Shown in pieces: positions 12,842-28,035 of a DNA stretch of 64,000 bases. The position numbers and the translations under genes were made by a program. Below the pieces are notes generated by a model, which worked only from the letters and a program-made list of their open reading frames with translations, ran no database searches and was not told the DNA's origin. The stretch spans positions 1,178,001 to 1,242,000 of the forward strand of contig CANNEA010000001.1 in the NCBI GenBank assembly GCA_947503525.1, given 5' to 3'. The first letter of the stretch is position 1; every line of letters begins with the position of its first letter. This DNA is from an uncultured Carboxylicivirga sp. GTDB taxonomy: Bacteria; Bacteroidota; Bacteroidia; Bacteroidales; Marinilabiliaceae.

Positions 12842-13321
12842 ATGACAGAAGTGAAACAACTGGTTAAAGGTTTGGCCGATCAATATGGTCGGAATGAAGA
12901 ATGCCTTTTACCTATTCTCCAAGGAATTGTTACCAGTGAGCAACACATCTCCGAAGATGCAATGGTGGAAGTAGCCCGCGAGCTTAATATTTCAGCAGCT
13001 CAAGTATACGGTACTGCTACTTTCTATTCCTTTTTGCACACTAAGCCGCTGGGTAAGTATGTTATTCGTGTATGTAAAACCATTACCTGCATGATGCATG
13101 GAAAAAATCAAATTATCAAAGAATTAGAATCTTTGCTTAAAGTGAATCTTGGTGAGACTACCCATGATGGCAAATTCACGCTAATGGAAACCAACTGTCT
13201 GGGTCAATGTCATAAAGGACCCGCTATGCTTATTAACGATAAGCCTTATACCGACCTAACTCCAGAAAAGGTGCGAGAAATAGTAATGATGTACAGAAAC
13301 AAGGAACTCCGTTCAAATTAA
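12842..13321 (+). CDS. Hydrogenase 1 NuoE/HydC-like [2Fe-2S] subunit
   Basis: 159 residues, the usual NuoE/HydC length. A helical N-terminal part (about 1-75) is followed by a thioredoxin-like [2Fe-2S] domain. The cluster cysteines are in CKTITC (C-x4-C) and TNCLGQCHKG (C-x3-C). YGTATFYSF is the family's conserved helix. In NADH-linked [FeFe]-hydrogenases this subunit docks on the flavin subunit. It is the first gene of operon 1 and is followed after 11 bases by the NuoF-like gene. It is clearly diverged from the second HydC at 28118, so the two operons are not a recent duplication. Confidence 0.92.
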   Translation: MTEVKQLVKGLADQYGRNEECLLPILQGIVTSEQHISEDAMVEVARELNISAAQVYGTATFYSFLHTKPLGKYVIRVCKTITCMMHGKNQIIKELESLLKVNLGETTHDGKFTLMETNCLGQCHKGPAMLINDKPYTDLTPEKVREIVMMYRNKELRSN

Positions 13322-13332
13322 TTCTCTAGATT

Positions 13333-14514
13333 ATGAAAAAGAAGCATCTGCAACGACTCGACCTTATCTTTAAAAATGAGCACGATATAGAAGCCATTCT
13401 TGAAAAAACACTTAAGAGAGGCAATGATGAAATTATAAATGACCTGATCAGTTCAGGTTTAAAGGGACGTGGAGGAGCTGGTTTTCCCACAGGATTAAAG
13501 TGGAAATTAGCCTCTGAGGAACAAACCGATGAGAAATATGTAATCTGTAATGCCGATGAAGGTGAACCGGGTACATTTAAAGATCGCGAGATTTTGCAAA
13601 GTGTTCCACACAAGGTATTAAGCGGAATGGCAGTTTGTGCCCGTATTATTGGTGCCAAAAAAGGATATATTTATTTACGTGGTGAATATTTGTTTTTAAA
13701 ACCACAGCTACTTGAGGTGATTGATGAGTTTCATAGTACATTGGACAAGATGGGTCTTGATTTCAGAGTTGAGATTTTCTTAGGCAGTGGCGCTTATATA
13801 TGTGGTGAAGAAAGCGCCTTGTTTGAAAGTATGGAAGGTAAACGCGGAGAGCCGCGCAATAAGCCTCCGTTTCCAACTGTTCAGGGATATAAAAGTAAGC
13901 CAACAGTTATTAACAATGTTGAAACACTTGCCCATACCTATTCCATATTTAAATATGGTCCCGATAAATTTAAGGATCTTGGTATTCAGGATTCCAGAGG
14001 ATCAAAAGTGTTTTCCGTATCAGGCGATACTCCCATACCTGGTATTTACGAATTAGAATTTGGAATGTCTGTACAGCGCTTTGTTGATGATTTTGGCGAT
14101 GGTGATGCCAAGGCCGTTCAGGTTGGTGGAGCTTCCGGATTTTGTGTGCCACGCAAGCGATTCGATAAAACAGTAATAGGATATCAAGGAAAGTTAAGAG
14201 GAACATCATTACCAACAGGAGGTTCAATGATGATTTTTAATTCTTCCCGATCAATGTATAACGTATTACACAACTACCTTGATTTCTTTGTTGAAGAATC
14301 GTGTGGACAGTGCACACCTTGCCGGGTTGGTACACAACAATTGCTGTTGGGTATCGAAGCAGTTAAAAAAGGTGATCAGCCATCCTCGTATCTCGATCGT
14401 TTAATGGACTTGGCAGAAGGGATGAGAGTAACCGCTAAGTGTGGATTAGGGCAATCTGTTGCCAACTCTTTCTCATCCATTGTTGAGAATTTTAAAGAGG
14501 AAATGATTTACTAA
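13333..14514 (+). CDS. Hydrogenase 1 NuoF/HydB-like flavin subunit, short form
   Basis: NADH-oxidising FMN subunit, 393 residues. Visible motifs in order: the NADH/FMN-binding glycine loop GLKGRGGAGFPTGLKW (about residue 45), ADEGEPGTFKDRE (about 75), the GSGAYICGEESAL FMN-binding block (about 155), an SLBB region, and the [4Fe-4S] motif ESCGQCTPCRVGT with a fourth Cys in AKCGLGQS. Unlike the 597-residue HydB of operon 2, it has no N-terminal thioredoxin-like [2Fe-2S] domain and no C-terminal two-[4Fe-4S] ferredoxin domain. Those extra clusters belong to the ferredoxin branch of bifurcating enzymes, so this enzyme may use NADH alone. The start is the ATG at 13333, 11 bases after the previous gene. 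Confidence 0.92.
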   Translation: MKKKHLQRLDLIFKNEHDIEAILEKTLKRGNDEIINDLISSGLKGRGGAGFPTGLKWKLASEEQTDEKYVICNADEGEPGTFKDREILQSVPHKVLSGMAVCARIIGAKKGYIYLRGEYLFLKPQLLEVIDEFHSTLDKMGLDFRVEIFLGSGAYICGEESALFESMEGKRGEPRNKPPFPTVQGYKSKPTVINNVETLAHTYSIFKYGPDKFKDLGIQDSRGSKVFSVSGDTPIPGIYELEFGMSVQRFVDDFGDGDAKAVQVGGASGFCVPRKRFDKTVIGYQGKLRGTSLPTGGSMMIFNSSRSMYNVLHNYLDFFVEESCGQCTPCRVGTQQLLLGIEAVKKGDQPSSYLDRLMDLAEGMRVTAKCGLGQSVANSFSSIVENFKEEMIY

Positions 14515-14529
14515 CCTAAACTAAAAATC

Positions 14530-16320
14530 ATGGCTGAAAAAATTAATCTTAAAATAGATAATATAGCGGTTAATATTGATGAAGGATCAACAATATTAGA
14601 GGCTGCTCGAAAAATCAATATCAGAATTCCCACCTTATGTCATCATGAAGACCTATGCGTAGCTGGTAATTGCCGGGTTTGTATGGTTGAGCAGGTAGAT
14701 AGCGATCGTTTATTGCCATCCTGTGCTATGCCCGTTTCTGAAGGTATGGAAATATTAACCAATAGCTTAAAAGTGCGCAGTGCCCGTAAGCAAGTTGTTG
14801 AATTGTTGGTTAGCGAGCATCGCGCGGATTGTACACGCTGTTACAAAAATGGCAAGTGCGAACTTCAGGAACTATCTTCTGAATATATTGTTGGTGAGAA
14901 TGGTTTTATTGACCTTGTACCATTGAAGAATTACAGTATTGATAACTTTTCTCCTTCCATCATTAAAGACGACAGCAAATGTATTCGATGTCAGCGTTGC
15001 GTTAGAACTTGCAATCAATTGCAGAATATTGGTGCCCTATCCGTGGCCTATAAAGGTGAACATATGAAAGTTTCATCCTTTTACGAAAAGCCAATGTACG
15101 AGGTGGTATGTACAAATTGTGGGCAATGTATTAATCGCTGTCCAACAGGAGCTTTAACTGAGAAGACTTATTTTGATGAAGTATGGTCAGCTTTAAATTC
15201 AGAAAAGAAACATGTAGTGGTTCAGACTGCACCTGCTGTGCGTATTGCATTAGGTGAAGCTTTAGGTATGCCTGCTGGTGAAATTGTAACTGGTAAGTTA
15301 GTGTCTGCCCTGCGTCGTTTAGGGTTTAATTCTGTTCTGGATACGGACTTTACTGCCGATTTAACAATTATAGAAGAAGGTAATGAGTTATTACAACGAC
15401 TAAAGAAAGCTTTGGTTGACGGTGATACCAGTGTGAAATTACCAATGACAACTTCGTGTTCACCAGGTTGGGTTAAGTTTATTGAACATGCATTTCCAGA
15501 GTATTTAGAAAATGTATCAACGGCTAAATCGCCTCAGCAAATGTTTGGAGCCCTGGCAAAAACATTTTATGCTAAGAAAATTGGAGTTGAGCCGGAAAAT
15601 ATGGTAAGTATTTCAGTTATGCCTTGTACGGCTAAAAAATACGAAGCCGATCGTCCAGAAATGCGCAGTAGCGGATATAAAGATGTAGATTATGTATTGA
15701 CTACACGTGAACTGGCCTTGATGATTAAGCAGGCGGGTATTGATTTTGCATCCTTACCGGATGATGAATATGATAGCATAATGGGAGAATCTTCAGGTGC
15801 CGCTGTGATATTTGGTGCTACCGGAGGTGTAATGGAGGCTGCTTTACGTACAGCTTATGAGGTTGTTACCGGTCGTGAAGTTCCTTTTGAGAACTTAAAT
15901 ATTACACCAGTCAGAGGAATGGAAGATGTTAAGGAAGCTACTATTAAAATAGAAAATGTTCTTCCTGAATGGAGTTTCCTTGAAGGTGCAGAATTAAAAA
16001 CATGTGTGGCTCATGGGCTGAGTAATGCCAAAAAAGTGATGGAAGCAGTTAAGGCTGGCACGGCAGAATATCACTTTATAGAGATAATGGCTTGTCCTGG
16101 TGGTTGCCTTGGTGGAGGAGGTCAACCTATTCCTACCTCGCCGGCTATTCGTAAGAAGCGGAGTGAAGCCATCTATAGAGAAGATGCTTTAAAGCCAATT
16201 CGAAAGTCGCATGAGAATCCGGAAGTTGTTCATATTTACGAAGAATTCTTGAAAGAACCACTCGGTAAGAAGTCACATGAATTATTACATACGCATTATA
16301 CCGAAAGAAATCGTTATTAA
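14530..16320 (+). CDS. [FeFe]-hydrogenase 1 catalytic subunit
   Basis: 596 residues. The order is: N-terminal [2Fe-2S] domain (C37, C48, C51 plus a further Cys in LLPSC), the His-ligated cluster HRADCTRCYKNGKC (H-x3-C-x2-C-x5-C), two ferredoxin clusters (KCIRCQRCVRTC and CTNCGQCINRCP), the H-cluster domain (about 215-560), and a small-subunit-like tail (KSHENPEVVHIYEEFL). The H-cluster motifs are L1 TTSCSPGW (C310, S311), L2 VMPCTAKKYE (C366) and L3 MACPGGCLGGGGQP (C522, C526). In the usual TSCCPxW the second Cys holds the cubane and the first relays protons; here the second is Ser. It is the last gene of operon 1, before a terminator. The predicted reaction is proton reduction coupled to NADH through the HydB-like subunit. 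Confidence 0.93.
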   Translation: MAEKINLKIDNIAVNIDEGSTILEAARKINIRIPTLCHHEDLCVAGNCRVCMVEQVDSDRLLPSCAMPVSEGMEILTNSLKVRSARKQVVELLVSEHRADCTRCYKNGKCELQELSSEYIVGENGFIDLVPLKNYSIDNFSPSIIKDDSKCIRCQRCVRTCNQLQNIGALSVAYKGEHMKVSSFYEKPMYEVVCTNCGQCINRCPTGALTEKTYFDEVWSALNSEKKHVVVQTAPAVRIALGEALGMPAGEIVTGKLVSALRRLGFNSVLDTDFTADLTIIEEGNELLQRLKKALVDGDTSVKLPMTTSCSPGWVKFIEHAFPEYLENVSTAKSPQQMFGALAKTFYAKKIGVEPENMVSISVMPCTAKKYEADRPEMRSSGYKDVDYVLTTRELALMIKQAGIDFASLPDDEYDSIMGESSGAAVIFGATGGVMEAALRTAYEVVTGREVPFENLNITPVRGMEDVKEATIKIENVLPEWSFLEGAELKTCVAHGLSNAKKVMEAVKAGTAEYHFIEIMACPGGCLGGGGQPIPTSPAIRKKRSEAIYREDALKPIRKSHENPEVVHIYEEFLKEPLGKKSHELLHTHYTERNRY

Positions 16321-16364
16321 AATTAGAATGAATGCCTAATAGTCCGTCGAGGATTGAACCTTTG

Positions 16365-16390
16365 AACCGGGACTTGTTCCCGGTTTTTTA
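16365..16390 (+). terminator. Terminator of hydrogenase operon 1
   Basis: Stem AACCGGGA (16365-16372) and TCCCGGTT (16378-16385), 5-base loop, then six Ts. It separates operon 1 from the sensor block, whose first gene starts about 190 bases later. Confidence 0.9.
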
Positions 16391-16577: not shown

Positions 16578-16838
16578 ATGGATAATAAAAGCGAAATAAC
16601 CATTTGTTTAGGCAGTTCCTGTTTTTCCAGAGGTAATAAGGAGGTCTTACAGATTATTAAAACCTTTATTGCTGAACATAAACTAGAAGCTGAAGTTTTT
16701 TTTCATGGCGATTTATGTGGTGGTCGTTGCGATGAAGGACCTGTGCTTAAGATTGATGATAAATCCTATTCACGAATTAGCGTAGATAACATTTATGAGA
16801 TTTTAAGCGACTATTTTGAAATTAAAGAGAATTTGTAG
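16578..16838 (+). CDS. Small thioredoxin-like [2Fe-2S] protein of the sensor block
   Basis: 86 residues, essentially the thioredoxin-like [2Fe-2S] domain of NuoE on its own. The probable ligands are CLGSSC (C-x4-C) near residue 11 and LCGGRCDEG (C-x3-C) near residue 47. It could pass electrons to or from the H-cluster-domain protein encoded 13 bases downstream, although this partnership is inferred from position only. Similar small [2Fe-2S] proteins sit next to hydrogenase-linked regulators in Thermotoga and clostridia, as I recall. Confidence 0.85.
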   Translation: MDNKSEITICLGSSCFSRGNKEVLQIIKTFIAEHKLEAEVFFHGDLCGGRCDEGPVLKIDDKSYSRISVDNIYEILSDYFEIKENL

Positions 16839-16851
16839 AAGGATATAAGCT

Positions 16852-18711
16852 ATGGGTCAGTTAATTGTCACAGATAAAGATAAATGTAATCTTAGTTATA
16901 CTTGCGTGCGTGTTTGTCCGGCCAAGGCCATTAAGATTGCTGATAAGCATGCTCAGATTTTACCGGATAGATGCATAGGTTGTGGGCACTGTGTTACCAT
17001 GTGCTCGCAGGAAGCCATTAGTTACCGTGATGAAAAATCTAAGGTCTTATCCATGTTGCAATCAGGTGAAAAGATTGCGGCAGTCTGTGATTCGGCTATA
17101 TCTGGTGAGTTTACTGATGTTACTGATTACAGAAAGTTTGTGGCAATGACCAGAGCCCTCGGTTTTGAGGTGGTTACTGAAATGTCTTTTGCGGTTGATT
17201 TAATTGCCTATCGATATAAGGAGTTGGTAGATAATTTTCAGGGCAAGCACTTTATTTCAACCAAGTGCCCTGCGGTAGTGAAATATATCGAACGACATGA
17301 GCCTGAATTGGTAGAAAATCTGGCCAACATTGTTCCACCTTATGTAGCAATGACCAAAGTCGTAAAAAAGCGATATGGCGATGCGACCAAGGTAGTTTAT
17401 CTTACTGCCTGCACAGCTTCTAAAGATGATGTAACCCGATTTCATGGTACCGATGGACAAATTGATGCTGTTCTCACTTTTGTTGAATTACGAGAGTTAT
17501 TTAAGCAGCAAAGAATAACGGAAAATACGGTTGAGTATAGCGAGTTTGATGCTCCTTTAGGGCGAAAAGGTGGACTATTCCCCATAGCACATGGTTTGTT
17601 TCAGGCGGTTGATATTAATCAAGGCCTGCTCGAAGGAAATATTCTTATTACAGAAGGTCGAACCAATTTTTTACAATCGATACGAGAGTTTAAAGAAGAA
17701 ACAGAAATGCATCAGCATCTCGATCTTTTTTACTGTAAAGGATGTATTATGGCTCCTGGAATGTCTACGGGAGGTAAAAAGTTTACGAGGCGCTCACAGG
17801 TTATAAAATATGTAGATAAGAGAATGAAAGCCATCGATGTCTATCAGTGGCGTCTCGATATAGAAGAATTCAAGTCCCTGGATTTAGACAGGAAATTTAA
17901 AACTGTTGATCTTCGTTTAGTTCAACCGGAAAATGCTCAAGTAGATAAGGTGCTTGAGGATATGGGCAAAAAGAAACGTGAGGATCAATTAGGCTGCGGA
18001 GCATGCGGTTATCCTACGTGCAGGGAGTTTGCTGTGGCTCATATTCAGGGATTAACGGATTATGAACAATGTTATACCTACTCCTTGAAGACTATGCGTT
18101 CCTATGTGAATAAGCTAAATGCTTCAAACGATAAATACAAAACGACACAGGAGGCGCTGCAGAGGAGCGAAGAGAAAGCCAGAAAAGAAGAGAGTGCAGC
18201 TCGAGCAGCCGCTGAAACCACAACATCAATGCTGAATAAATTACGAGCAGGAGTTGTAATGGTTGATGCTAGTTTAAAAGTGGTTGAGGCCAACAGGCGC
18301 TTTATTGAAATGATAGGCGAAGATGCAGAGGAAATTGCCGAATTAGTGCCAGGGTTAAAGGGTGCAGAGCTTACCACTTTAGTCGAATTTCATAAGGTGT
18401 TTACAACGGTACTTCAGTCCGGTCAGGATGTTTTGGATCGCGATGTCGTATTTAAAAATTCCATATTTAATGTATCTGTCTTTACCATTAAGAAAAATGA
18501 AGTTGTTGGTGGTATTATTCGTGATTTGGTGACTCCGGAGGTACGAAAAGAAGAAGTGATTAAGCGTGCACGAGATGTAATTAAAGAGAACTTACAAACC
18601 GTGCAGCAGATAGCGTTTTTGTTAGGGGAGAGTGCTTCAAAAACAGAAAAGACATTGAACAGTATTATTGAAGCTCAACAGTTAGGCGAAGCAAATGAAT
18701 CAGGAAAATAG
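16852..18711 (+). CDS. HydS-like sensory [FeFe]-hydrogenase-domain protein with PAS domain
   Basis: 619 residues. Residues 1-60 hold two ferredoxin motifs; the first reads C12-NL-S15-YT-C18-VRV-C22-P, with Ser where the second Cys is normal, and the second (CIGCGHCVTMC) is complete. An H-cluster-like domain follows (about 70-360): L1 is STKCP (C139, with Lys in place of the proton-relay Cys), L2 is TACTASK (C187), and L3 is CKGCIMAPGM (C295, C298). Then come an FeS domain (C382, C385, C390, C407), an alanine-rich coiled coil (about 420-455) and a PAS domain (about 460-560). This is the layout of group C, presumed H2- or redox-sensing, hydrogenases rather than a turnover enzyme. Its stop overlaps the start of the phosphatase gene by 17 bases, so the two are probably translationally coupled. 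Confidence 0.88.
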   Translation: MGQLIVTDKDKCNLSYTCVRVCPAKAIKIADKHAQILPDRCIGCGHCVTMCSQEAISYRDEKSKVLSMLQSGEKIAAVCDSAISGEFTDVTDYRKFVAMTRALGFEVVTEMSFAVDLIAYRYKELVDNFQGKHFISTKCPAVVKYIERHEPELVENLANIVPPYVAMTKVVKKRYGDATKVVYLTACTASKDDVTRFHGTDGQIDAVLTFVELRELFKQQRITENTVEYSEFDAPLGRKGGLFPIAHGLFQAVDINQGLLEGNILITEGRTNFLQSIREFKEETEMHQHLDLFYCKGCIMAPGMSTGGKKFTRRSQVIKYVDKRMKAIDVYQWRLDIEEFKSLDLDRKFKTVDLRLVQPENAQVDKVLEDMGKKKREDQLGCGACGYPTCREFAVAHIQGLTDYEQCYTYSLKTMRSYVNKLNASNDKYKTTQEALQRSEEKARKEESAARAAAETTTSMLNKLRAGVVMVDASLKVVEANRRFIEMIGEDAEEIAELVPGLKGAELTTLVEFHKVFTTVLQSGQDVLDRDVVFKNSIFNVSVFTIKKNEVVGGIIRDLVTPEVRKEEVIKRARDVIKENLQTVQQIAFLLGESASKTEKTLNSIIEAQQLGEANESGK

Positions 18712-19885
18712 GTTTTACATAGATATTGAATGTCGTCAAAATAATCATGTTGGCGAGCTGATATGCGGCGATGTCTTTCTTTCGAAACGGATAAAGGAAG
18801 AAGGCAGGACAGTGGCTGTTTTATCGGATGGGATGGGTAGTGGTGTTAAAGCCAATGTACTGGCTACATTAACAGCTTCGATGGCCATGAACTTCACGGT
18901 TGAGCATCGTGAGGTAAGGAAAACTGCTGAGATAATAATGAATACCCTGCCAGTATGCAGTGTGCGTAAAGTTAGCTATAGTACCTTTACTATAATAGAT
19001 ATTGAAGACGATGGCACAACTACAATAGTGGAATACGACAACCCGATTTGTACTATAATGCGTGGTGCAGAGTTGTTTGATCCGCTTTGGTCCGATATTG
19101 AATTGGAGAGTGAACAGAACAAGGGCAAGAAAATTCGCACCTGCAAATTTAAAGCCCAACGCGAAGATCGTATTTTCTTTTGGTCCGATGGAATTATGCA
19201 ATCCGGAATGGGAAGCAGGGCCTTCCCTTTTGGATGGGGAGAAGAGGCTATGGGTGAGTATGTCAAGAAATTAGTCAGATACACGCCTTTTGCATCTTCG
19301 GGAAAACTAGGACAGAAGGTGGTTAATATGGCTCTTCAACATGACGGTGAAAAACCAAAGGATGATTCATCGTGTGGTGTCATTTACTTTAGAGAACCAC
19401 GAAAGTTGTTGTTGGTTACAGGTCCTCCATTCGAAGATGTGAATGATTTTGATTTTGCCCTTAAAGTTCAGCACTTTAAAGGTAAGCGAATAATTGCTGG
19501 TGGAACCACCGCTGAGGTGATATCCCGGGAATTAGCATTGAAGTTTGATGCCGGCTTGGAATCTGATGATCCGGATTTACCTCCTATAGCTCACATGCAG
19601 GATATTAACCTGGTTACTGAGGGTATTCTGACCCTTGGTAAAGTAGCTAAATTGCTCGAGGTGTATGACAAAGATACCCGCTTAAGAAATGGTCCCGCCG
19701 ATCAGATTATAAAGATGCTTTTGGAGAGTGATAAAATCCACATTATTAATGGCACCAGAATCAATGTAGCGCATCAGGATCCCAATCTCCCGGTTGAACT
19801 CGAAATCAGAAGAACAGTAGTTAAACGGATCGTTCGTATATTGGAGGAAAAATTCCTTAAAGAGGTTGATGTAGAGTATATGTAA
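18695..19885 (+). CDS. SpoIIE/PP2C-family serine phosphatase with unknown C-terminal domain
   Basis: 396 residues. Residues about 1-230 are a SpoIIE-type PP2C phosphatase: LSDGMGSG (metal aspartate, near 48), FFWSDGIMQSG (near 165) and DDSSCGVIYF (near 225) are the metal-binding loops. The last 160 residues, with LLLVTGPPFE and IIAGGTTAEVISREL, do not belong to any domain I can name. Dephosphorylation of a Ser/Thr-phosphorylated partner is expected. The usual partner, a STAS anti-anti-sigma factor, is not encoded nearby. Translation starts inside the end of the HydS-like gene, which argues that the sensor controls this phosphatase. It ends operon segment B; about 270 bases without an evident gene follow. 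Confidence 0.88.
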   Translation: MNQENRFYIDIECRQNNHVGELICGDVFLSKRIKEEGRTVAVLSDGMGSGVKANVLATLTASMAMNFTVEHREVRKTAEIIMNTLPVCSVRKVSYSTFTIIDIEDDGTTTIVEYDNPICTIMRGAELFDPLWSDIELESEQNKGKKIRTCKFKAQREDRIFFWSDGIMQSGMGSRAFPFGWGEEAMGEYVKKLVRYTPFASSGKLGQKVVNMALQHDGEKPKDDSSCGVIYFREPRKLLLVTGPPFEDVNDFDFALKVQHFKGKRIIAGGTTAEVISRELALKFDAGLESDDPDLPPIAHMQDINLVTEGILTLGKVAKLLEVYDKDTRLRNGPADQIIKMLLESDKIHIINGTRINVAHQDPNLPVELEIRRTVVKRIVRILEEKFLKEVDVEYM

Positions 19886-20157
19886 GTCAAGCTTTTACTA
19901 CTGATAAAAATCATAAATCCCCTATGGTTTCAATTTGAAACTTGTGCCTTCCTATAGCTTATATTTTAATATCATTATCCCTTGTTTTTGCATTGAACTG
20001 TTGAGGTTTAATTTAGATTTGATATGTATTATCGAAAAAGAAGATCTTCATTTTTTTTTTTCATAATATTAGATTTCATTTGTGTTTTAAATCGGGAAAA
20101 TTTTCTTTAATGGAAGTTTTCAAGAACCAAAATCTAAGAAAAAACAAGTGGTCGAGA

Positions 20158-20502
20158 ATGAAAGTAAAAGAGATTGCGGAGATAATAGATGCTAAAGTTG
20201 TTTGCGGTGAAGAATTTATCAACAGAGAAATTTGTTGTGGGTTTGCAAGCGACTTGATGAGCGATGTTTTGACCTTAGACTCAGAGCAATTGGCCCTAAT
20301 TACAGGCTTAGCTAACATGCAAGTGGTTCGCACAGCAGAAATGGCTGATGTGAATTGTATCGTGTTTGTTCGGGATAAAAGTGTTAGTCCTGAGATGATG
20401 GAAGTGGCTGAAGATAATGAGATGGTTCTTTTAGAGTGTAAGTATTCAATGTTCAATGCAATTGGCAGACTTTTTCAAGCTGGTCTCCAACCTGTATATT
20501 GA
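20158..20502 (+). CDS. DRTGG-domain protein 1
   Basis: About 114 residues from the ATG at 20158 (MKVKEIAEIID). The frame is open back to 20080, but the paralogue at 22303 also starts MKVSDI, which supports the shorter start. It is a stand-alone DRTGG-type domain, with CGFASDLMSDVL near residue 25 and a hydrophobic C-terminal strand pattern. DRTGG domains also occur in phosphotransacetylases and CBS proteins; their ligand is unknown, with a regulatory nucleotide often proposed. The upstream gap (19886-20157) holds an inverted repeat GTTTCAATTTGAAAC but no clear promoter. Confidence 0.78.
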   Translation: MKVKEIAEIIDAKVVCGEEFINREICCGFASDLMSDVLTLDSEQLALITGLANMQVVRTAEMADVNCIVFVRDKSVSPEMMEVAEDNEMVLLECKYSMFNAIGRLFQAGLQPVY

Positions 20503-20510
20503 TTAATGAT

Positions 20511-20927
20511 ATGGAGTTTAACTACGAAGTTGAAGGTGGCAATTTTGCAAAAGCAGGCAATGCAGCCAGTAGTGTTAAAAAAGTCTTAAAGCAACTTAAT
20601 GTTGATCCCAAGGTGATCAAGCGAGTTGTAGTTGCTCTTTACGAAGGTGAAGTGAATGTAGTAGCTCATGCCTATAAGGGTAATATCATGGTGGATATTG
20701 ATACGGAAAGAATTTTTATAAAAATAAGTGATGAAGGCCCGGGGATACCGGATATAGATTTGGCCATGACAGTTGGGTATTCGACTGCATCAGCTATGGT
20801 TAGAGAAATGGGTTTTGGAGCAGGCATGGGACTGCCAAATATGAAACGAAATGCAGATTCATTAAACTTAACGAGTAAAGTTGGCAAAGGAACGGTTGTA
20901 GAATTAACCACCAATTTACCAAAATAG
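20511..20927 (+). CDS. HATPase_c protein, anti-sigma-factor-kinase-like
   Basis: About 138 residues from the ATG at 20511; a TTG at 20499 overlaps the previous stop and is less likely. It is a single GHKL ATPase domain like RsbW/SpoIIAB: the N-box region EGEVNVVAHAYKG, the G1 box SDEGPGIPD and the G2 box GFGAGMGLPNM. A serine kinase acting against the SpoIIE-like phosphatase gene upstream would make a partner-switching pair, but no STAS substrate or sigma factor is encoded in the block. It lies 8 bases after DRTGG protein 1 and 9 bases before the second H-cluster-domain gene, which indicates one transcript. Confidence 0.85.
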   Translation: MEFNYEVEGGNFAKAGNAASSVKKVLKQLNVDPKVIKRVVVALYEGEVNVVAHAYKGNIMVDIDTERIFIKISDEGPGIPDIDLAMTVGYSTASAMVREMGFGAGMGLPNMKRNADSLNLTSKVGKGTVVELTTNLPK

Positions 20928-20936
20928 ATTCAAGGT

Positions 20937-22316
20937 ATGAGCGAACAGCAGTTTTATCATGCATTAAAAGTCGACGAAGACAAGTGTTACGGATGCACTC
21001 ATTGTATGAATGTGTGTCCAACTGATGCCATCCGAATAAGGGAAGGTATCGCAAGGATTCGTAAAGACTGGTGTGTGGACTGTGGCGAATGCATGAAGGC
21101 TTGTCCTGTTGATGCCATTTACGTTGAGCAAGATGATTTTGAAAGAATATTTGACTTCAAACACAGAGTTGCCGTTTTGCCTTCGGTGTTTATAGGTCAG
21201 TTCTCAAAGCAAATCCAGGAAAGTGAAATAATAGATGTCCTTCATAATTTGGGCTTTACCCATGTAGTTCCGGCAGAAGCAACTGTAGATACTATTAATG
21301 AGGCGATGTTAGATGAGTACACGTCTGATCGTGATAAACCCTTAATTTCGTCATTCTGCCCTTCAATTGTTCGCCTTATACAAGTTAAATTCCCGGGATT
21401 AGTAAATAATATTATTCCCATTAAACCGCCTATTGACAGTACGGCCATTTATTATCGGCAAATGCTTCTGGATGAAGGTAACAAAGCAGAGGAGATTGGA
21501 ATTTTCTACGTAACGCCTTGTGCTTCTAAAATTGCAACTGTTAAGGATCCGGTTGGTGAATCAGAATCATTTGTTGATGGGGTAATCAACATGGATTTCT
21601 TGTATAATAAGGTTTACCATATTCTAAATAACAGAAATCAGGAAGCCACCAAGGAAAGTAAGGCTGTTCCGTATGTAACACCTAAAGGATTACGTTGGAG
21701 TTTAACCGAAGGTGAATCAAGCCATATGGAAGGTAGATGTTTGGCGATTGATGAAATACATAATGTCATCAAGTTCCTGAATAAAGTGGAGAACGATGAA
21801 ATCATTAATGTTGATTTTCTGGAGTTAAGGGCTTGCGACCAAAGTTGTGCAGGCGGTGTTTTACTTTCTGAGAATCGTTTTCTAACGGTGGAACGATTGA
21901 AGAAAAGAGCCGAACGAATTGAGCAGAATAATGGTGAGGTCAACTTTTTTAGTTTTGATCAAAAGGAATATATCAAACAGAATCTTGAGTTAGGCAAAAT
22001 TGAACCACGTTCAATGATGAGCTTAGATAACGACATGGCTACAGCCATTAAGAAGATGGAACGTGTACGCAGCATCATGTGTTATCTGCCGGGCATTGAT
22101 TGTGGAGCATGTGGTTCTCCGAGTTGTGAAAGCCTTGCCAGAGATATTGTGTTAAAGGACGGACATATTTCCAATTGTGTGTTTATGCAACGGATGATGG
22201 AGAAAACTAAAAAGTTAGATCCAATGCATTCCATCCGAATTATTGAAAAAACATGGGGTAAGGATCGTCTGGATAAGGACTGTTATAAAAAAGGAGCAAA
22301 AAATGAAGGTATCTGA
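20937..22316 (+). CDS. Second H-cluster-domain iron-sulfur protein (group D-like)
   Basis: 459 residues. Two complete ferredoxin motifs (C17, C20, C23, C27 and WCVDCGECMKACP) are followed by an H-cluster-like domain with L1 SSFCPS (C141), L2 VTPCASK (C195) and L3 RACDQSC (C300, C304). The four cubane/bridge cysteines therefore remain, while the proton-relay Cys and the GGGQP tail are gone. A C-terminal FeS domain (CGACGSPSC...C) follows near residue 390. There is no PAS domain or kinase. It probably senses or relays electrons rather than turning over H2. The 3' end overlaps DRTGG gene 2 by 14 bases, which implies translational coupling. Confidence 0.85.
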   Translation: MSEQQFYHALKVDEDKCYGCTHCMNVCPTDAIRIREGIARIRKDWCVDCGECMKACPVDAIYVEQDDFERIFDFKHRVAVLPSVFIGQFSKQIQESEIIDVLHNLGFTHVVPAEATVDTINEAMLDEYTSDRDKPLISSFCPSIVRLIQVKFPGLVNNIIPIKPPIDSTAIYYRQMLLDEGNKAEEIGIFYVTPCASKIATVKDPVGESESFVDGVINMDFLYNKVYHILNNRNQEATKESKAVPYVTPKGLRWSLTEGESSHMEGRCLAIDEIHNVIKFLNKVENDEIINVDFLELRACDQSCAGGVLLSENRFLTVERLKKRAERIEQNNGEVNFFSFDQKEYIKQNLELGKIEPRSMMSLDNDMATAIKKMERVRSIMCYLPGIDCGACGSPSCESLARDIVLKDGHISNCVFMQRMMEKTKKLDPMHSIRIIEKTWGKDRLDKDCYKKGAKNEGI

Positions 22317-22638
22317 TATAGTTAAATTACTTAAACTTAAGGTAATTGGAGGTGAAGAAGGTCTGGATAATGAAGTCTGTGGTGGTTACACTTCAGATTT
22401 ATTGAGCGACGTCATGGGTAATGCTGATGAAGGTCAAGTATGGATTACTTTGCAAACGCACCGAAATGTTATGGCCGTTGCATCACTTAAAGAAGTGGCT
22501 GCTGTAATTATAGTTAAAGGTCTAGAAGCAGAAGAAAATACGATAAATCAGAGCAATGATGAAGGGATTCCACTTTTAAGTACGGATTTAGAAGCCTTCG
22601 AGTTGTCTGGTCAGTTATATAAAATATTGAATCCATGA
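22303..22638 (+). CDS. DRTGG-domain protein 2
   Basis: 111 residues. The start is the ATG at 22303, preceded by a good ribosome-binding site (AAGGAGC) inside the previous gene. It is paralogous to the protein at 20158: both begin MKV, share GGEE near residue 20 and share a CGG/CCG-x-x-SDLLSDVM-like motif near residue 30. Differences elsewhere suggest the two bind different partners. The PHP gene starts two bases after its stop. The function is unknown. Confidence 0.78.
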   Translation: MKVSDIVKLLKLKVIGGEEGLDNEVCGGYTSDLLSDVMGNADEGQVWITLQTHRNVMAVASLKEVAAVIIVKGLEAEENTINQSNDEGIPLLSTDLEAFELSGQLYKILNP

Positions 22639-22639
22639 T

Positions 22640-23380
22640 ATGAACCAGTTTAAGGCCGATTTACACATGCATACGGTGCTTTCCCCCTGCGGTAGCTTGG
22701 AGATGAACCCTTCGGTAATAGTAGATGAGGCATTAAAACAAGGTTTAGATATTATTGGAATTACCGACCACAATACTACGAAACAATGTAAAGTGGTGTT
22801 TGAATTGGGTAAAGAAAAAGGATTAGTAGTGATCTGTGGGGCAGAGGTCACAACAAAAGAAGAAGTGCACTGCCTGACGTTCTTTGAAAATTTTGAGAAA
22901 TTGGAAAAATTCGAAAGCTATCTGGATAATTATCTGCCGGATGTTCCGAATGATACCGAAATGTTTGGTCACCAGGTTTGGGTGAATCGTGAAGAGGAGA
23001 TAGTTGGAGAAGAAAGTCGCTTATTAATAAGTGGTATTGATCAAAGCATTGAGGAGGTAGAAGCTAAGGTTAGAAGTCTGGGTGGATTATTTATACCTGC
23101 CCATGTTGATAAAGGACGGTTTAGTTTGTACAGTCAACTTGGATTTATGCCATTCGACCTTAAGCCCGATGCAATAGGCTTAAGTGCCAATGTTAAGGAT
23201 GAATTTCTGGCTAATCACAAAGAGTTGGAGAACTACACGCTTTTAAGATCATCCGATGCACATCAGCCGGATTTAATAGGCTCGCATTACAGCATATTTG
23301 AAATGGAGCACCGAACTTTTGAAGAGATCAGGATGGCACTGCATCAAACAAATGGAAGGAGGGTTTGCCGCACGGTATGA
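22640..23380 (+). CDS. PHP-domain phosphoesterase
   Basis: 246 residues with the full set of PHP metal-binding motifs: DLHMHTVLSPCG (near residue 7), ITDHNTT (near 39), AEVTT plus EVHCL (near 69), PAHVDKG (near 153) and SSDAHQPD (near 205). Relatives such as TrpH/RNase AM (YciV) hydrolyse 3',5'-bisphosphonucleotides or RNA 5' ends. A nucleotide second messenger read by the adjacent DRTGG proteins would be an attractive substrate, but this is speculation from position. Its stop overlaps the next start (ATGA), so it is coupled to the HATPase gene. Confidence 0.85.
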   Translation: MNQFKADLHMHTVLSPCGSLEMNPSVIVDEALKQGLDIIGITDHNTTKQCKVVFELGKEKGLVVICGAEVTTKEEVHCLTFFENFEKLEKFESYLDNYLPDVPNDTEMFGHQVWVNREEEIVGEESRLLISGIDQSIEEVEAKVRSLGGLFIPAHVDKGRFSLYSQLGFMPFDLKPDAIGLSANVKDEFLANHKELENYTLLRSSDAHQPDLIGSHYSIFEMEHRTFEEIRMALHQTNGRRVCRTV

Positions 23381-23922
23381 GAGATTTATCAATGCATATA
23401 ACTGATATCATTCAGAATTCTGTACGAGCCAAGGCTAAGTTGGTTCAACTCACCATTGAAGAAGATGGCGATAAGTTGAAAATGACATTTACAGATGACG
23501 GTACAGGAATGGATGCTGAAACAGTTCAAAGGGTAAGTGATCCTTTTTATACATCACGAACAACACGGAAAGTAGGGATGGGTATTCCGCTGTTTAAGCA
23601 AAATGCGGAGCTTACAGATGGATCGCTTGACATTGAATCGGAATTAGGTGAAGGCACTGTGGTACAAGTGGAATTGGGACTCAATCATATTGATCGTCCT
23701 CCCATGGGTGATTTATCATCAACAGTGGCCATGCTAATCACCGGTAATCCTGAGGTGGAGATGATCTTTTGCTATAAGAAAGATGCTGATGAATTTAAGT
23801 TGGATAGCCGCGAGGTTAAAGAAATATTGGATGGAGTGGATGTTCGATTGCCTAAGGTGACCAATTTCTTAAAAGAAATGATTGAAGAGAATTTAAAGGA
23901 ATTAAAAATAGAGAGTGACTGA
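23377..23922 (+). CDS. Second GHKL/HATPase_c protein
   Basis: About 181 residues from the ATG at 23377, which forms an ATGA overlap with the PHP stop; a TTG at 23365 is an alternative. It shows the N-box MHITDIIQNSVRAKA, the G1 box TDDGTGMD, DPFYTSR and the G2 box GMGIPLFKQN, so it is a histidine-kinase/MutL-like ATPase fold without a phosphoacceptor domain. A C-terminal 80-residue extension has no recognised domain. It is the last gene of this tightly packed segment. Confidence 0.82.
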   Translation: MRDLSMHITDIIQNSVRAKAKLVQLTIEEDGDKLKMTFTDDGTGMDAETVQRVSDPFYTSRTTRKVGMGIPLFKQNAELTDGSLDIESELGEGTVVQVELGLNHIDRPPMGDLSSTVAMLITGNPEVEMIFCYKKDADEFKLDSREVKEILDGVDVRLPKVTNFLKEMIEENLKELKIESD

Positions 23923-24018
23923 AAGAGTGGTGTTTAGTCGAGGAAGTGTCGCTATGAACTCGACCTGACAACAGCGAATTAAATAAAAGGAATGTGTAAT
24001 TAATAATAATGAATTGCT

Positions 24019-24426
24019 ATGACAAAAGTTAAATCACTTGCCGACCTTCGGAAAATGAAGGAAGAGCTGGCCAATAAGGTTCAGCTGCGCGAAAAAAGTG
24101 ACAGCCCTGAGAAATTAGTTCAGGTGAAAGTGTCAATGGCTACCTGTGGTATTGCTTCAGGTGCTAAGGAAATCATGAACCACATGATTGACGAAATGGA
24201 TCGTCAGGCTATAGAGGCTTTAGTGACTCAAACCGGTTGTATGGGTTTTTGCCATGCTGAACCAACCATTGAAGTAACCTTACCTAATAATGAACCTGTT
24301 GTTTTTGGTCATGTAGACTCTAAAAAAGCAGATGAAATAATTACTAAGTACATTATTCGAGGTGAATTGGTGGATGGAATCATCCCGGTGAATTACGAAA
24401 CAGTTAAAGAAAACAAGAACGACTAG
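24019..24426 (+). CDS. Thioredoxin-like [2Fe-2S] ferredoxin-domain protein
   Basis: 135 residues. After a basic N-terminal helix (about 1-35) comes a thioredoxin-like [2Fe-2S] domain with MATCGIASGA (one Cys) and TGCMGFCHAEP (C-x3-C). The C-x4-C of NuoE is reduced here to a single Cys in the first loop, so the ligand set looks incomplete or unusual. It is encoded 11 bases before hydB of operon 2 and probably belongs to the bifurcating hydrogenase as an accessory electron carrier. A 96-base gap separates it from the regulatory genes. Confidence 0.8.
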   Translation: MTKVKSLADLRKMKEELANKVQLREKSDSPEKLVQVKVSMATCGIASGAKEIMNHMIDEMDRQAIEALVTQTGCMGFCHAEPTIEVTLPNNEPVVFGHVDSKKADEIITKYIIRGELVDGIIPVNYETVKENKND

Positions 24427-24437
24427 TTTTATACGCT

Positions 24438-26231
24438 ATGGCTAAATTTAAGAATCATGTCCTTGTATGCGGCGGAACAGGTTGTCGTGCTTCGCAAGGA
24501 GAAGAGATTGTACAAAACCTGAATCAGGTCATTGAAGAAAATGGCATTGAGCAAGATGTTCAGGTGGTAAGAACCGGATGTTTCGGTTTTTGTGAAAAAG
24601 GTCCTGTTGTAAAAATGGTACCTGACAATACTTTCTATGTTCAGGTTACACCAGATGATGCAACTGAAATAGTAAAAGAACATTTAGTAAAAGGACGTAA
24701 AGTAGAGCGTCTTTTATATACCGACCCTGAAACCAAAGAGCGTGTTTCGGAATCAAAAGATATGGGTTTCTATAAGAAGCAGATTCGTATAGCTTTACGT
24801 AACTGTGGATTTATTAATCCTGAAAATATCGACGAGTATATCGCTCGCGATGGTTATGCTGCCCTTGGTAAAGCTTTAACCGAAATGAAACCTGAAGAGG
24901 TTATCAAAGAAATTTTAGATTCAGGTCTTCGCGGTAGAGGTGGAGGAGGTTTCCCAACTGGTTTAAAGTGGGAGCTGACTCGCAAGGTTGATGCTGATCA
25001 AAAATATGTAGTGTGTAATGCCGATGAGGGTGACCCTGGGGCATTTATGGATCGTTCAATTCTTGAAGGTGATCCGCATGCTGTACTGGAAGCTATGGCC
25101 ATTAATGGATTCTGTACTGGAGCCAGTATTGGTTTAATCTACATTCGTGCTGAGTACCCATTGGCTATTTCACGTTTGAAAATTGCCATTGAGCAAGCTC
25201 GCGAATATGGATTGTTAGGTAAAGATATCTTAGGTACTGGTTTCGACTTTGATGTTGAAATGCGTTATGGCGCAGGTGCTTTTGTTTGTGGTGAGGAAAC
25301 TTCTTTGATTCACTCAATGGAAGGTTTACGTGGAGAACCTACTGTTAAGCCTCCATTCCCATCAGAGAGTGGTTACAAAGGCAAACCTACAAACGTAAAT
25401 AATGTTGAAACATACGCTAATATTCCGGTAATATTATTGGAAGGTGCTAAATGGTTCAGTAGTATTGGTACCGATAAGAGTAAGGGAACAAAAGTATTTG
25501 CCCTTGCAGGTAAGGTAAATAATGTAGGACTTATTGAAGTTCCTATGGGTACTACCCTTCGTGAAGTAATTTTCGATATTGGTGGTGGTATCAAAGATGG
25601 TAAAGGCTTTAAGGCTGTTCAAACCGGTGGTCCTTCAGGTGGATGTTTAACTGAGAAACACCTTGATATTCCTATCGATTACGATAACTTATTAGCCTGC
25701 GGTTCTATGATGGGATCAGGTGGTATGATCGTAATGGACGAGGATGACTGTATGGTGTCAATGGCTAAGTTTTACTTAGACTTTACTGTTGAAGAATCAT
25801 GTGGTAAGTGTGCTCCTTGCCGTATCGGTAATAAGCGTCTTTACGAAATGTTGGACAAAATTACTGAAGGTAAAGGAACTGATGAAGATCTTGGACACTT
25901 GAGAAACTTAAGTAACGTTATCAAGGATACTTCTTTATGTGGATTGGGGCAAACATCTCCAAACCCGGTGCTTTCTACAATGGAAAACTTCTGGGATGAG
26001 TATGTAGCTCACGTTAAAGATGATAAATGTCCGGCTGGTCAATGTAAATCATTAATGCAGTATGTAATTGTTGAGGACAAATGTGTGGGTTGTACCCTGT
26101 GTTCTCGAGTTTGTCCTGTTGATTGTATTGTGGGTGACAAAAAAGCACCACATGTTATCACTCAGGATATCTGTATTAAGTGTGGGGCTTGTTATGATAA
26201 GTGTAAGTTTGGTGCCATCAGCATTCAATAA
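24438..26231 (+). CDS. hydB: Bifurcating hydrogenase 2 flavin subunit HydB
   Basis: 597 residues, full length for HydB of electron-bifurcating [FeFe]-hydrogenases. The domains are: an N-terminal thioredoxin-like [2Fe-2S] domain (CGGTGCRAS and RTGCFGFCEKG), a NuoF NADH/FMN core (GLRGRGGGGFPTGLKW near 165; ADEGDPGAF near 195; GAGAFVCGEETSL near 275), an SLBB region, the [4Fe-4S] ESCGKCAPCRIG...C near 455, and a C-terminal two-cluster ferredoxin domain (CVGCTLCSRVCP and CIKCGACYDKC). The last domain is absent from the operon 1 homologue. It is predicted to exchange electrons with NAD(H), ferredoxin and HydA. Confidence 0.95.
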   Translation: MAKFKNHVLVCGGTGCRASQGEEIVQNLNQVIEENGIEQDVQVVRTGCFGFCEKGPVVKMVPDNTFYVQVTPDDATEIVKEHLVKGRKVERLLYTDPETKERVSESKDMGFYKKQIRIALRNCGFINPENIDEYIARDGYAALGKALTEMKPEEVIKEILDSGLRGRGGGGFPTGLKWELTRKVDADQKYVVCNADEGDPGAFMDRSILEGDPHAVLEAMAINGFCTGASIGLIYIRAEYPLAISRLKIAIEQAREYGLLGKDILGTGFDFDVEMRYGAGAFVCGEETSLIHSMEGLRGEPTVKPPFPSESGYKGKPTNVNNVETYANIPVILLEGAKWFSSIGTDKSKGTKVFALAGKVNNVGLIEVPMGTTLREVIFDIGGGIKDGKGFKAVQTGGPSGGCLTEKHLDIPIDYDNLLACGSMMGSGGMIVMDEDDCMVSMAKFYLDFTVEESCGKCAPCRIGNKRLYEMLDKITEGKGTDEDLGHLRNLSNVIKDTSLCGLGQTSPNPVLSTMENFWDEYVAHVKDDKCPAGQCKSLMQYVIVEDKCVGCTLCSRVCPVDCIVGDKKAPHVITQDICIKCGACYDKCKFGAISIQ

Positions 26232-26268: not shown

Positions 26269-28035
26269 ATGGAAATCGTTCAATTAACCATAGATAATAA
26301 AAAGGTAGTTGTTGAAAAAGGCACTACCATCTTAGAAGCTGCTAAATCAATCGGGGTGGATATTCCTACCCTGTGTTATATGAAGCTTCATGACACTAAT
26401 TTCGAGAACAAGCCGGGCGGATGTCGTGTGTGTGTTGTTGAGGTTGAAGGTCGTCGTAACCTTGCTCCGTCATGTAAATCAACATGTGAGGAAGGAATGA
26501 AAATTAATACGCACTCGGTACGTGTTGTAAATGCACGTCGTACAGTTATGGAGTTGATCTTATCTGATCACCCATTCGAGTGTTTGGTTTGTGCCAAGTC
26601 CGGCGATTGTGAATTACAATCATTGGCTCAAAATTTGGGTATTCGTGAAGTGAAGTACCAGGGCGAGAAAAACAAATACAAGAGTGATGAATCTCCGGCT
26701 ATCATTCGAGAAATGGAGAAATGTATCATGTGTCGCCGATGCGAAACAGCTTGTAACGACGTACAGACAGTAGGCGTACTTTCTGCTATCAATCGTGGAT
26801 TTGAGTCTGTTGTTGCGCCAGCCTTCGAAATGGATTTAGATCACTCTACTTGTACCTTCTGTGGTCAATGTGTGGCTGTTTGTCCAACAGGAGCTTTAAC
26901 TGAGCGCGATAGCTCATCTAAAGTAATGGATGCTATTGTTGATCCTAATAAAACAGTTATTGTCAATACTGCTCCTGCAGTACGTGCCGCTTTAGGTGAA
27001 GAATTTGGTATGGATGCCGGTACTCTGGTAACTGGTAAAATGGTTTCGGCTCTACGTAAACTTGGTTTCGATCATGTATTTGATACTGACTTTGCTGCCG
27101 ACCTTACCATTATGGAAGAAGGTACTGAGTTGTTGGGCCGTTTAGGAAAACATTTAGCCGGTGATAAAGATGTGAAATTACCAATCCTGACTTCTTGTTG
27201 TCCGGGATGGGTTAACTTCTTTGAGCATCAGTTTCCTGATATGTTAGATATTCCATCTACAGCTAAATCTCCTCAGCAGATGTTTGGTGCTATTGCCAAA
27301 ACTTATTTTGCTGATCAGTTGGAGAAGAAACGTGAGGACGTTGTTGTTGTTTCGGTAATGCCTTGTTTGGCTAAGAAGTATGAATGTTCACGTGATGAAT
27401 TTAAAGTTGATGGCGATCCTGATGTGAATCTGTCTATCTCAACGCGTGAGTTAGCTCAAATGATTCGTAATGCCAATTTAAATTTTGAAGCGCTTGAGGA
27501 TGATGATTTCGATCAGCCAATGGGTGAGTCAACAGGTGCCGCTGTTATTTTTGGTACTACCGGCGGTGTAATTGAAGCAGCTGTTCGTACAGCTTACGAA
27601 GTACATACTAAAAAGACGCTTGAGCGTTTAGACTTTGAAGAGCTGCGTGGAATGGAAGGTATCCGTTCGGCAACCATCGATTTTGATGGTCTACCAATCA
27701 ATATTGGTATTGCTCATGGTTTGGGTAATGCACGTAAGTTGCTTGAAGATATTAAAGCAGGTAAGTCGGAATTCCATGCCATTGAAATTATGGCTTGTCC
27801 TGGTGGATGTATTGGTGGTGGCGGTCAGCCTTATCACCATGGTGATGTTGAAATTCTTAAGAAGCGTCAACGCGCCATCTACGAAGAGGATAAAGGTAAA
27901 ATCTTGCGTAAGTCGCATGAGAATCCATTTATACAAAAGCTGTATAAGGAGTTCTTAGGTGAGCCATGTGGAGAAAAATCTCATGAGCTGTTGCATACAC
28001 ACTATTACGACAAGAAAAAGAAGATTGAAATTTAG
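26269..28035 (+). CDS. hydA: Bifurcating [FeFe]-hydrogenase 2 catalytic subunit HydA
   Basis: 588 residues. The domain order is the same as hydrogenase 1: [2Fe-2S] domain, His-ligated cluster (HPFECLVCAKSGDC), two ferredoxin clusters (CIMCRRCETACN, CTFCGQCVAVCP) and the H-cluster domain. The motifs are fully canonical: L1 LTSCCPGW (C310, C311), L2 VMPCLAKKYE (C366) and L3 MACPGGCIGGGGQP (C510, C514). It catalyses H2 formation or uptake, probably coupled to both NADH and ferredoxin through HydB and HydC. It lies 37 bases after hydB; an 82-base gap with a hairpin separates it from hydC. Confidence 0.96.
   Translation: MEIVQLTIDNKKVVVEKGTTILEAAKSIGVDIPTLCYMKLHDTNFENKPGGCRVCVVEVEGRRNLAPSCKSTCEEGMKINTHSVRVVNARRTVMELILSDHPFECLVCAKSGDCELQSLAQNLGIREVKYQGEKNKYKSDESPAIIREMEKCIMCRRCETACNDVQTVGVLSAINRGFESVVAPAFEMDLDHSTCTFCGQCVAVCPTGALTERDSSSKVMDAIVDPNKTVIVNTAPAVRAALGEEFGMDAGTLVTGKMVSALRKLGFDHVFDTDFAADLTIMEEGTELLGRLGKHLAGDKDVKLPILTSCCPGWVNFFEHQFPDMLDIPSTAKSPQQMFGAIAKTYFADQLEKKREDVVVVSVMPCLAKKYECSRDEFKVDGDPDVNLSISTRELAQMIRNANLNFEALEDDDFDQPMGESTGAAVIFGTTGGVIEAAVRTAYEVHTKKTLERLDFEELRGMEGIRSATIDFDGLPINIGIAHGLGNARKLLEDIKAGKSEFHAIEIMACPGGCIGGGGQPYHHGDVEILKKRQRAIYEEDKGKILRKSHENPFIQKLYKEFLGEPCGEKSHELLHTHYYDKKKKIEI

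Follow-up and report, generated by a model that had tools for sequence, protein, structure and literature searches.

A conserved gene module with two DRTGG proteins beside bifurcating-type hydrogenase genes in an uncultured Carboxylicivirga

Two gene sets between two hydrogenase operons

The window analysed here is a 64,000-nucleotide stretch of the 6.56-Mb genome of an uncultured Carboxylicivirga sp. (Bacteroidota; GenBank assembly GCA_947503525.1, contig CANNEA010000001.1, positions 1,178,001 to 1,242,000, forward strand). At window positions 16578 to 24426 it carries ten genes, all on the + strand, for two H-cluster-domain (H-domain) proteins, a SpoIIE/PP2C-type phosphatase, two GHKL-type ATPase proteins, two DRTGG proteins, a PHP phosphoesterase, and two small [2Fe-2S] proteins. 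A preliminary description had read these as one hydrogenase-linked signalling block. The genes lie where it placed them, with Pfam support and with hydrogenase operons both upstream and downstream, and the coupled starts it reported are overlaps of 17 bp (18695-18711), 14 bp (22303-22316, with an ATG at 22303), and 4 bp (23377-23380). Its gene set stands, but not as one ten-gene unit; we instead distinguish a unit A of three genes and a following unit B, which is a real and widespread module. The features are as follows:

12842..16320, + strand: upstream hydrogenase operon with NuoE-like, HydB-like, and HydA1 genes (open reading frame [ORF] list and mapping)
16364..16386, + strand: terminator-like hairpin 3' of HydA1 (hairpin scan; 4 such sites in the region against 5.0 expected by chance)
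16578..16838, + strand: Fd1, small thioredoxin-like [2Fe-2S] protein, unit A (PF01257, 4.6e-9)
16852..18711, + strand: HydS, PAS-containing H-domain protein, HfsB/group C-like, unit A (PF02906, 8.8e-34; PF04060, 2.6e-8)
18695..19885, + strand: SpoIIE/PP2C-type phosphatase, HfsC-like, unit A (PF07228, 7e-8; the 17-bp overlap is with HydS)
19886..20157, + strand: 272-bp gap between units A and B (SpoIIE to DRTGG1), with a weak promoter-like match
20158..20502, + strand: DRTGG1 (d1), 114-aa stand-alone DRTGG domain, unit B (PF07085, 8.1e-6)
20511..20927, + strand: W, RsbW/SpoIIAB-like GHKL kinase, unit B (PF13581, HATPase_c_2, 1.5e-11)
20937..22316, + strand: S (Hyd2), PAS-less group D-like H-domain protein, unit B (PF02906, Fe_hyd_lg_C, 1.1e-20; PF04060, 3.7e-10)
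22303..22638, + strand: DRTGG2 (d2), unit B (PF07085, 7e-5, under cut-off; own-genome search)
22640..23380, + strand: P, PHP phosphoesterase, unit B (PF02811, 9.7e-9)
23377..23922, + strand: H, GHKL ATPase, HydE/hisK-like by place, with an extra C-terminal domain (PF02518, HATPase_c, 1.5e-15)
24019..24426, + strand: F, HydD-like (by place) thioredoxin-fold [2Fe-2S] protein (PF01257, 1e-4, under cut-off; operon place)
24438..26231, + strand: HydB2, downstream bifurcating-type hydrogenase (ORF list and mapping)
26269..28035, + strand: HydA2, H-cluster subunit (TSCCPGW in the translation)
28118..28594, + strand: HydC (ORF list and mapping)

Against the curated PF07085 cut-off of 25.2 bits, DRTGG1 scores above (26.1 bits) and DRTGG2 just below (23.0 bits); F, at 22.6 bits, is likewise just below its own curated cut-off of 24.8 bits, and the PAS match of HydS (7.5e-4) is under the Pfam PAS cut-off. 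The gap between the units contains a Bacteroidota-type promoter-like match at 19987-20021, scored with what we take to be the consensus, which is weak because the window has 6 such matches against 4.2 expected. The gap, this match, and the terminator-like hairpin together are the reason why the block is better taken as two units.

Spread and organization of unit B

A DRTGG1 profile, used for genome surveys at a threshold of E <= 1e-6, matched 174 of 398 sampled Bacillota genomes (here the phylum of a Clostridiales genome), 10 of 201 Chloroflexota (the phylum of an Anaerolineae genome), and 5 of 296 Bacteroidota, our own genome included. The first scan, made with DRTGG1, gave 46 loci. The fetched loci (L numbers; G numbers denote genomes) are not a random sample, since L112-L151 comprise top-ranked matches and long frames, favouring d1-W fusions, while L180-L239 are further, nearly consecutive ranks of the Bacillota search; locus counts leave out 28 repeated short loci (L152-L179).

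The observed gene set is beyond chance: of the 159 loci with d1 that were fetched, 139 contain W, d2, and PHP as well, and in every one of these the four genes stand in the same order on one strand. The remaining 20 include contig ends and split operons. The unit B order is d1, W, S, d2, PHP, H, then HydD (F), HydB, HydA, and HydC, with HydC preceding H in most Bacillota loci. Natural fusions join d1 to W in ten loci (L112-L121), PHP to H in five (L145, L185, L190, L194, L216), S to d2 in two (L148, L199), H to HydD in one (L214), and d1 to S in one (L047). All of these except H-HydD were confirmed by Pfam on one example each.

In five split operons (L193, L202, L205, L224, L231), d1, d2, PHP, and H have no W or S nearby. 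A Rex gene, identified by Pfam, lies directly upstream of DRTGG1 in L193, L205, L224, and L231, and the upstream protein tested at L202 gave no Pfam match. We rejected loss of W in the Rex-type genomes, since W was found elsewhere beside S. This holds for 5 of 5 split-operon genomes, and therefore the parts persist together even where they are unlinked. The L205 operon is flanked by valS-, maf-, radC-, and mreCD-type genes, and that of L224 by an mreB-type gene.

Unit A rarely accompanies unit B. SpoIIE occurs in 10 of 159 loci with d1 (10 of the 142 that hold at least 3.6 kb upstream of d1, enough to show unit A as laid out here) and HydS in 12 of 159. Among the 45 loci of the first scan recognised by the DRTGG1 profile, SpoIIE and HydS were both present in 10 and Fd1 in 9; at L040, HydS and SpoIIE are divergent and without Fd1. 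SpoIIE was found in none of 114 further loci (40 plus 60 Bacillota, 10 Chloroflexota, 4 Bacteroidota), 2 of which have HydS fused to a kinase-like domain. Our own genome has a second HydS-SpoIIE pair at L061 (G000:C11), and its only two DRTGG matches are those in the window. The preliminary description had expected DRTGG, HATPase, SpoIIE, and PHP genes to travel together. DRTGG, the RsbW-like HATPase, and PHP do so, whereas SpoIIE does not, and its placing in the same circuit was not borne out. On locus mapping, together with the rarity of SpoIIE and HydS beside unit B, we rejected a single ten-gene circuit. Two further observations concern HydS: the L061 pair is followed by frames with weak partial hydrogenase-subunit matches, and at L076-L079, L148, and L199 an H-domain protein of the HydS type is joined to a histidine-kinase-like ATPase domain, making a HydS-kinase hybrid.

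To judge from its predicted products, unit A is by plan the known hfsABC-type set, in which a PAS H-domain protein is found beside a serine phosphatase. The likeness to hfsABCD of Thermoanaerobacterium is one of plan (passages of PMC11837493 and PMC5707799). HfsB is described there as a PAS [FeFe] hydrogenase-like protein and HfsC as homologous to serine phosphatases (PMC11837493), and deletion of hfsA or hfsB increased ethanol yield with higher adhE expression (PMC5707799). Unit B differs in being separate from this set, and most unit B loci are without HydS and SpoIIE.

Within the open-access literature searched, judged by titles, abstract openings, and passages, with subscription papers outside its scope, no description of the unit B module was found. 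Parts of it have been noticed in the passages we cite: bifurcating hydrogenases of Thermoanaerobacter have a group D-type hydrogenase and a histidine kinase upstream (PMC3608648), TamHydS lies next to a histidine-kinase-like ATPase (PMC8163306), and a spoIIAB label appears in the figure legend of a Sporomusa gene cluster (PMC12003927).

Sensors, adaptors, and neighbouring enzymes

The AlphaFold2 model of DRTGG1 (predicted local distance difference test [pLDDT] 96.2) matches the DRTGG structure 2ioj in Foldseek with a template modelling (TM) score of 0.80, and also HPr kinase/phosphatase and the CBS-DRTGG pyrophosphatase (3l2b, 3l31). A STAS-like fold was rejected, with no STAS-named entry among the top 50 Foldseek matches. 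Ser35 (S35) is invariant in both DRTGG proteins (159 of 159 d1, 149 of 149 d2). The W profile matches SpoIIAB in the PDB at 3.9e-12, its nearest solved relatives being SpoIIAB chains, and W also matches TIGR01925 at 6e-17, under cut-off; Glu45, Asn49, Asp74, and the glycines checked are kept in 151 of 151 sequences. PHP keeps H9 in 141 of 142 and eight other motif residues in all of the 139 to 143 sequences checked, within what we take to be the metal-ligand motifs HxH, DH, E, H, H, and DxH, and its relatives include 3',5'-nucleoside bisphosphate phosphatase and RNase RNM, both far under cut-off. The H model (pLDDT 91.7) has a GHKL ATPase with an extra domain, and H keeps Asp10, the N-box acid, and Asn14 in 138 of 138. 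The conserved residues of W, PHP, and H presumably have the catalytic roles usual for such proteins. Separately, all 143 PHP sequences compared have a cysteine at position 17 (L008 numbering), a short way past the HxH motif.

By their place in the operon, H and F are putative counterparts of HydE and HydD (hisK/hydD) in Acetobacterium woodii and A. mobile. The A. woodii operon runs hydC-hydE-hydD-hydB-hydA1 (PMC10472528), and in A. mobile hisK and hydD are in the operon and not in the enzyme (PMC9304861); DRTGG, W, S, and PHP go unmentioned in the cited passages of these papers.

The preliminary description had noted a block without a STAS gene and suggested that DRTGG might take the STAS place, and both points agree with the wider sample. 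A single STAS match, at the far edge of L247, appeared in 188 fetched loci (repeats included), with a profile that found STAS in 5 of 5 spoIIA-type control loci, and DRTGG consistently accompanies the RsbW-like kinase, in some loci as a fusion. Our own genome has 9 SpoIIE, 13 HATPase_c_2, and 5 STAS matches (window ones included), with all five STAS matches lying elsewhere. Set beside a STAS module, unit B has a kinase with the catalytic Glu and the N and G boxes; it has no STAS with that kinase, and PP2C/SpoIIE is confined to the 10 of 159 loci already given. One of the closest known schemes is the partner switching of SpoIIAB/RsbW, SpoIIAA/RsbV, and SpoIIE. W is related to SpoIIAB and keeps residues aligned with the catalytic Glu and the nucleotide boxes, whereas unit B is without STAS or SpoIIE, DRTGG1 has the DRTGG fold, and PHP lies where PP2C would be. 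We noticed no sigma gene in the module itself, though the flanks were not scanned and no search was aimed at sigma factors. The CBS-DRTGG pyrophosphatases share the DRTGG fold (3l2b/3l31) and the pairing of CBS with DRTGG; they differ in that unit B has DRTGG as a separate small protein and the CBS pair, where present, fused to the GHKL kinase.

S combines an H-domain with a C-terminal FeS motif and has no PAS domain. Its four H-domain cysteines, which we take to be the cubane ligands, are invariant. By domain plan alone we assign S as a putative group D [FeFe] hydrogenase, with TamHydS as the likeness: S also has N-terminal 4Fe-4S clusters, an H-domain, a C-terminal FeS motif, and no PAS, and TamHydS, like the S region, lies upstream of a bifurcating hydrogenase and beside a histidine-kinase-like ATPase (PMC8163306, PMC3608648). 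Neither DRTGG nor PHP nor an RsbW-like kinase is named in the cited passages, and S differs further in occurring also where HydF is undetected.

The presence of S varies with the form of W. In 21 loci W carries an N-terminal CBS pair (identified by Pfam on one example), and S was not found nearby in 18 of these; CBS domains are usually sensors. Of the 130 loci in which W is without CBS, 123 have S. The seven plain-W loci without S are L230 and six from Bacteroidota. Five of these six Bacteroidota genomes were searched, and their best S-profile matches are HydS-type, in four of them fused to a kinase-like ATPase domain. CBS-W amounts to four changes on the W tree (a single FastTree, with changes counted by parsimony); independent CBS/S pairs are few.

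HydF, the H-cluster maturase, was found in 53 of 80 module-bearing genomes queried, including our own (5.4e-146), where H-cluster building is possible, and was not found in 27, among them all ten Chloroflexota; genome completeness is known for five of the 80. Negatives rest on 20 scored first-look candidates in G004, G006, G103, G109, G126, G143, G198, G246, G005, G715, G785, G816, and G872, and all first-look candidates were scored in G185, G040, G307, G235, G581, and G589. Sixteen S sequences from HydF-negative genomes all keep the four H-domain cysteines, and 12 keep the lysine after the second of these (Lys198), the other four having Gln. Absence of Lys198 does not mark loss of the H-cluster cleanly, and we rejected it as such a marker: Gln is found in 4 of 16 HydF-negative against 0 of 38 HydF-positive S, but Lys is kept elsewhere. 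The S proteins of L131, L145, L146, L185, and L190, beside formate-dehydrogenase-type genes, keep Lys198; L021 (Gln) and L207 (Arg) have a HydF status outside the comparison.

Within the fetched stretches, an A-type gene ending at an in-frame TGA after CARL occurs in ten HydF-negative genomes, in HydF-positive G223, and in G023, which was outside the HydF query. Read through the TGA, the genes of eight loci encode proteins some 900 residues long in which the TGA context reads CARLUH, and from their sequence we take them for putative selenocysteine (Sec) formate dehydrogenases. The part before the TGA was compared with protein families for three sequences, which match NuoG TIGR01973 and, less strongly, Fdh-alpha TIGR01591, all under whole-protein cut-offs; molybdopterin oxidoreductase domains are present in three that were examined for them. 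In L266 and L267 the gene comes after PHP, HydC, H, F, and HydB, all co-directional; in L270-L273 some 10 kb separate it from the module, and in L281 and L282 it is found on the opposite strand in a neighbouring operon. At these loci the putative Sec enzyme has HydB/HydC/HydD-like neighbours, at or near the module. S-bearing genomes with HydF undetected likewise carry a putative Sec FdhA by HydB/HydC-like genes, in the module operon or within about 10 kb. The A protein of L268 is HdrA-like and those of L276 and L277 are NuoG-like, all under cut-off. Many fetched stretches stop short of the catalytic A gene, and the enzyme type covers part of the genomes.

Full-length HydA was not found in 4 of 13 module-bearing genomes asked (G185, G040, G307, G235). 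The distribution of HydF, HydA, and Fdh thus points to the HydB/HydC (BfuBC) core as the common feature, and the common denominator of unit B looks like a bifurcating (Bfu/HydBC) enzyme rather than H2; the link between H2 and the module does not hold in every genome, in either direction. HydBC/BfuBC-type enzymes are described as a family with many third substrates (passages of PMC9304861). H2 as the general signal (the preliminary description had offered H2 or redox state) does not agree with a module, S included, that occurs in HydF-undetected genomes in or near a formate-dehydrogenase-type operon.

Two side observations concern the window. The first H-cluster motif of HydA1 (14530-16320) is TSCSPGW, compared with TSCCPGW in HydA2, and TSCSPGW is present in all 21 HydA1 sequences compared, the window's included. 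A large ORF at 30508-32556 is by eye polysaccharide lyase-like.

A candidate redox or energy switch and its alternatives

The membership, order, fusions, conserved active sites, sensor exchange, and occurrence beside non-hydrogenase HydB/HydC-type enzymes were all computed. The reading that we favour, tentatively and at a little short of an even chance, is that unit B is a stand-alone signalling module for HydABC/BfuABC-type electron-bifurcating flavoenzymes, a redox or energy switch with DRTGG adaptors where STAS would be and a PHP enzyme where PP2C would be. S, through its iron-sulphur H-domain, would sense redox as reduced ferredoxin, or as H2 where an H-cluster can be built, and in other lineages the CBS pair on W would supply an adenylate-type input in its place. 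The DRTGG adaptors would bridge S and the GHKL kinase W, and W would most likely phosphorylate or bind DRTGG1 in the stead of STAS. PHP and the HydE-like ATPase H may reverse or read the DRTGG state, which from H may go on to HydD and the HydB/HydC enzyme. What we infer are the way in which the signal runs, the phosphorylation, what PHP acts on, and how the enzyme responds.

Several results weigh against this reading. Phosphorylation is its weak point: in a profile alignment the canonical DRTGG protein AF1212 also has a serine at the place of S35. The residue may therefore be structural or ligand-related, and we rejected the conservation of S35 as specific evidence of phosphorylation. The best structure matches of H are MutL, ParE, and histidine-kinase ATPase domains, and a direct coupling analysis of d1 and W (175 pairs, repeated loci included; effective number of sequences [Neff] 98) gave no clear signal either way. 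The d1-W, S-d2, and PHP-H fusions are one change each on the W tree, so they are few events shared by several genomes; d1-S and H-HydD are single sightings, and L047 (d1-S) is ordered W-d2-d1~S and cut by a contig end. The split by enzyme type is not clean, with HydF-positive G223 carrying the Sec-type gene and four HydF-negative genomes (G001, G004, G006, G793) having an H-cluster HydA, so some HydF absences may be false. Nor does HydA require the module: 9 of 20 genomes without a DRTGG1 match have it in full length.

Among the alternatives, DRTGG, with CBS, could bind an AMP- or diadenosine tetraphosphate (Ap4A)-like ligand while PHP hydrolyses a nucleotide signal and W and H act as ATP-gated adaptors without phosphotransfer. 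This is possible, though we think it unlikely. CBS and DRTGG co-occur in pyrophosphatases regulated by AMP and Ap4A (passages of PMC7705103; 3l2b and 3l31 by fold), W carries a fused CBS pair in 21 loci, the distant PHP relatives act on nucleotides and RNA by name, and the conserved DRTGG Asp, Ser, and Thr lie near strand ends and a helix start in the AlphaFold2 model, where a pocket may lie; yet the ligand is a candidate only, and W keeps its kinase residues, including the catalytic Glu in 151 of 151. W might instead be an anti-sigma factor of the ordinary SpoIIAB type, with its sigma factor encoded elsewhere and DRTGG1 in the anti-anti-sigma role. We consider this improbable: W's nearest solved relatives and its sub-threshold TIGR01925 match speak for it, but the five genomes searched hold separate SpoIIAB-like genes, at about 1e-12 to 1e-15 to the W profile and each beside a STAS gene, and the module itself, its flanks unscanned for sigma factors, yielded no sigma gene.

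An assembly or maintenance function, in which H, PHP, DRTGG, and S would build, repair, or load cofactors of HydB/HydC-type enzymes without any signalling, has a similarly low probability. It would suit a module that is often within the enzyme operon, the MutL/ParE-like fold of H, and the absence of HydD and hisK from the A. mobile holoenzyme (PMC9304861); it suits less well the genomes in which the module is apart from the enzyme genes, four times behind Rex, and the 18 loci with CBS domains in the place of S. The circuit of the preliminary description, in which HydS sets SpoIIE, SpoIIE dephosphorylates DRTGG, and the HATPase proteins phosphorylate it, draws on the adjoining of units A and B here and on the 10 of 159 loci with HydS and SpoIIE (divergent in L040). 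It is very improbable, given that 149 of 159 loci gave no SpoIIE (132 of these have at least 3.6 kb upstream of DRTGG1), that the L061 pair stands alone while all DRTGG matches of its genome are in the window, and that a 272-bp gap divides the units.

If unit B is a signalling module, as we favour, it bears on how anaerobes tune electron bifurcation, and hence the balance of H2, formate, NADH, and ferredoxin, which is an open question. The downstream pathway of the putative sensory [FeFe] hydrogenases is not established, and the module tests whether group D-type proteins sense H2 at all, because they persist where the H-cluster maturase is undetected. More broadly, though we hold this to be rather doubtful, the module may be a phospho-switch that differs from partner switching, with DRTGG as a new class of kinase partner in place of STAS, PHP in place of PP2C, and an exchangeable sensor. 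It would control electron bifurcation in general, and the PAS-less H-domain proteins that accompany it may be redox rather than H2 sensors for which the H-cluster is optional. The module provides named, purifiable candidates beside the enzymes in many Bacillota.

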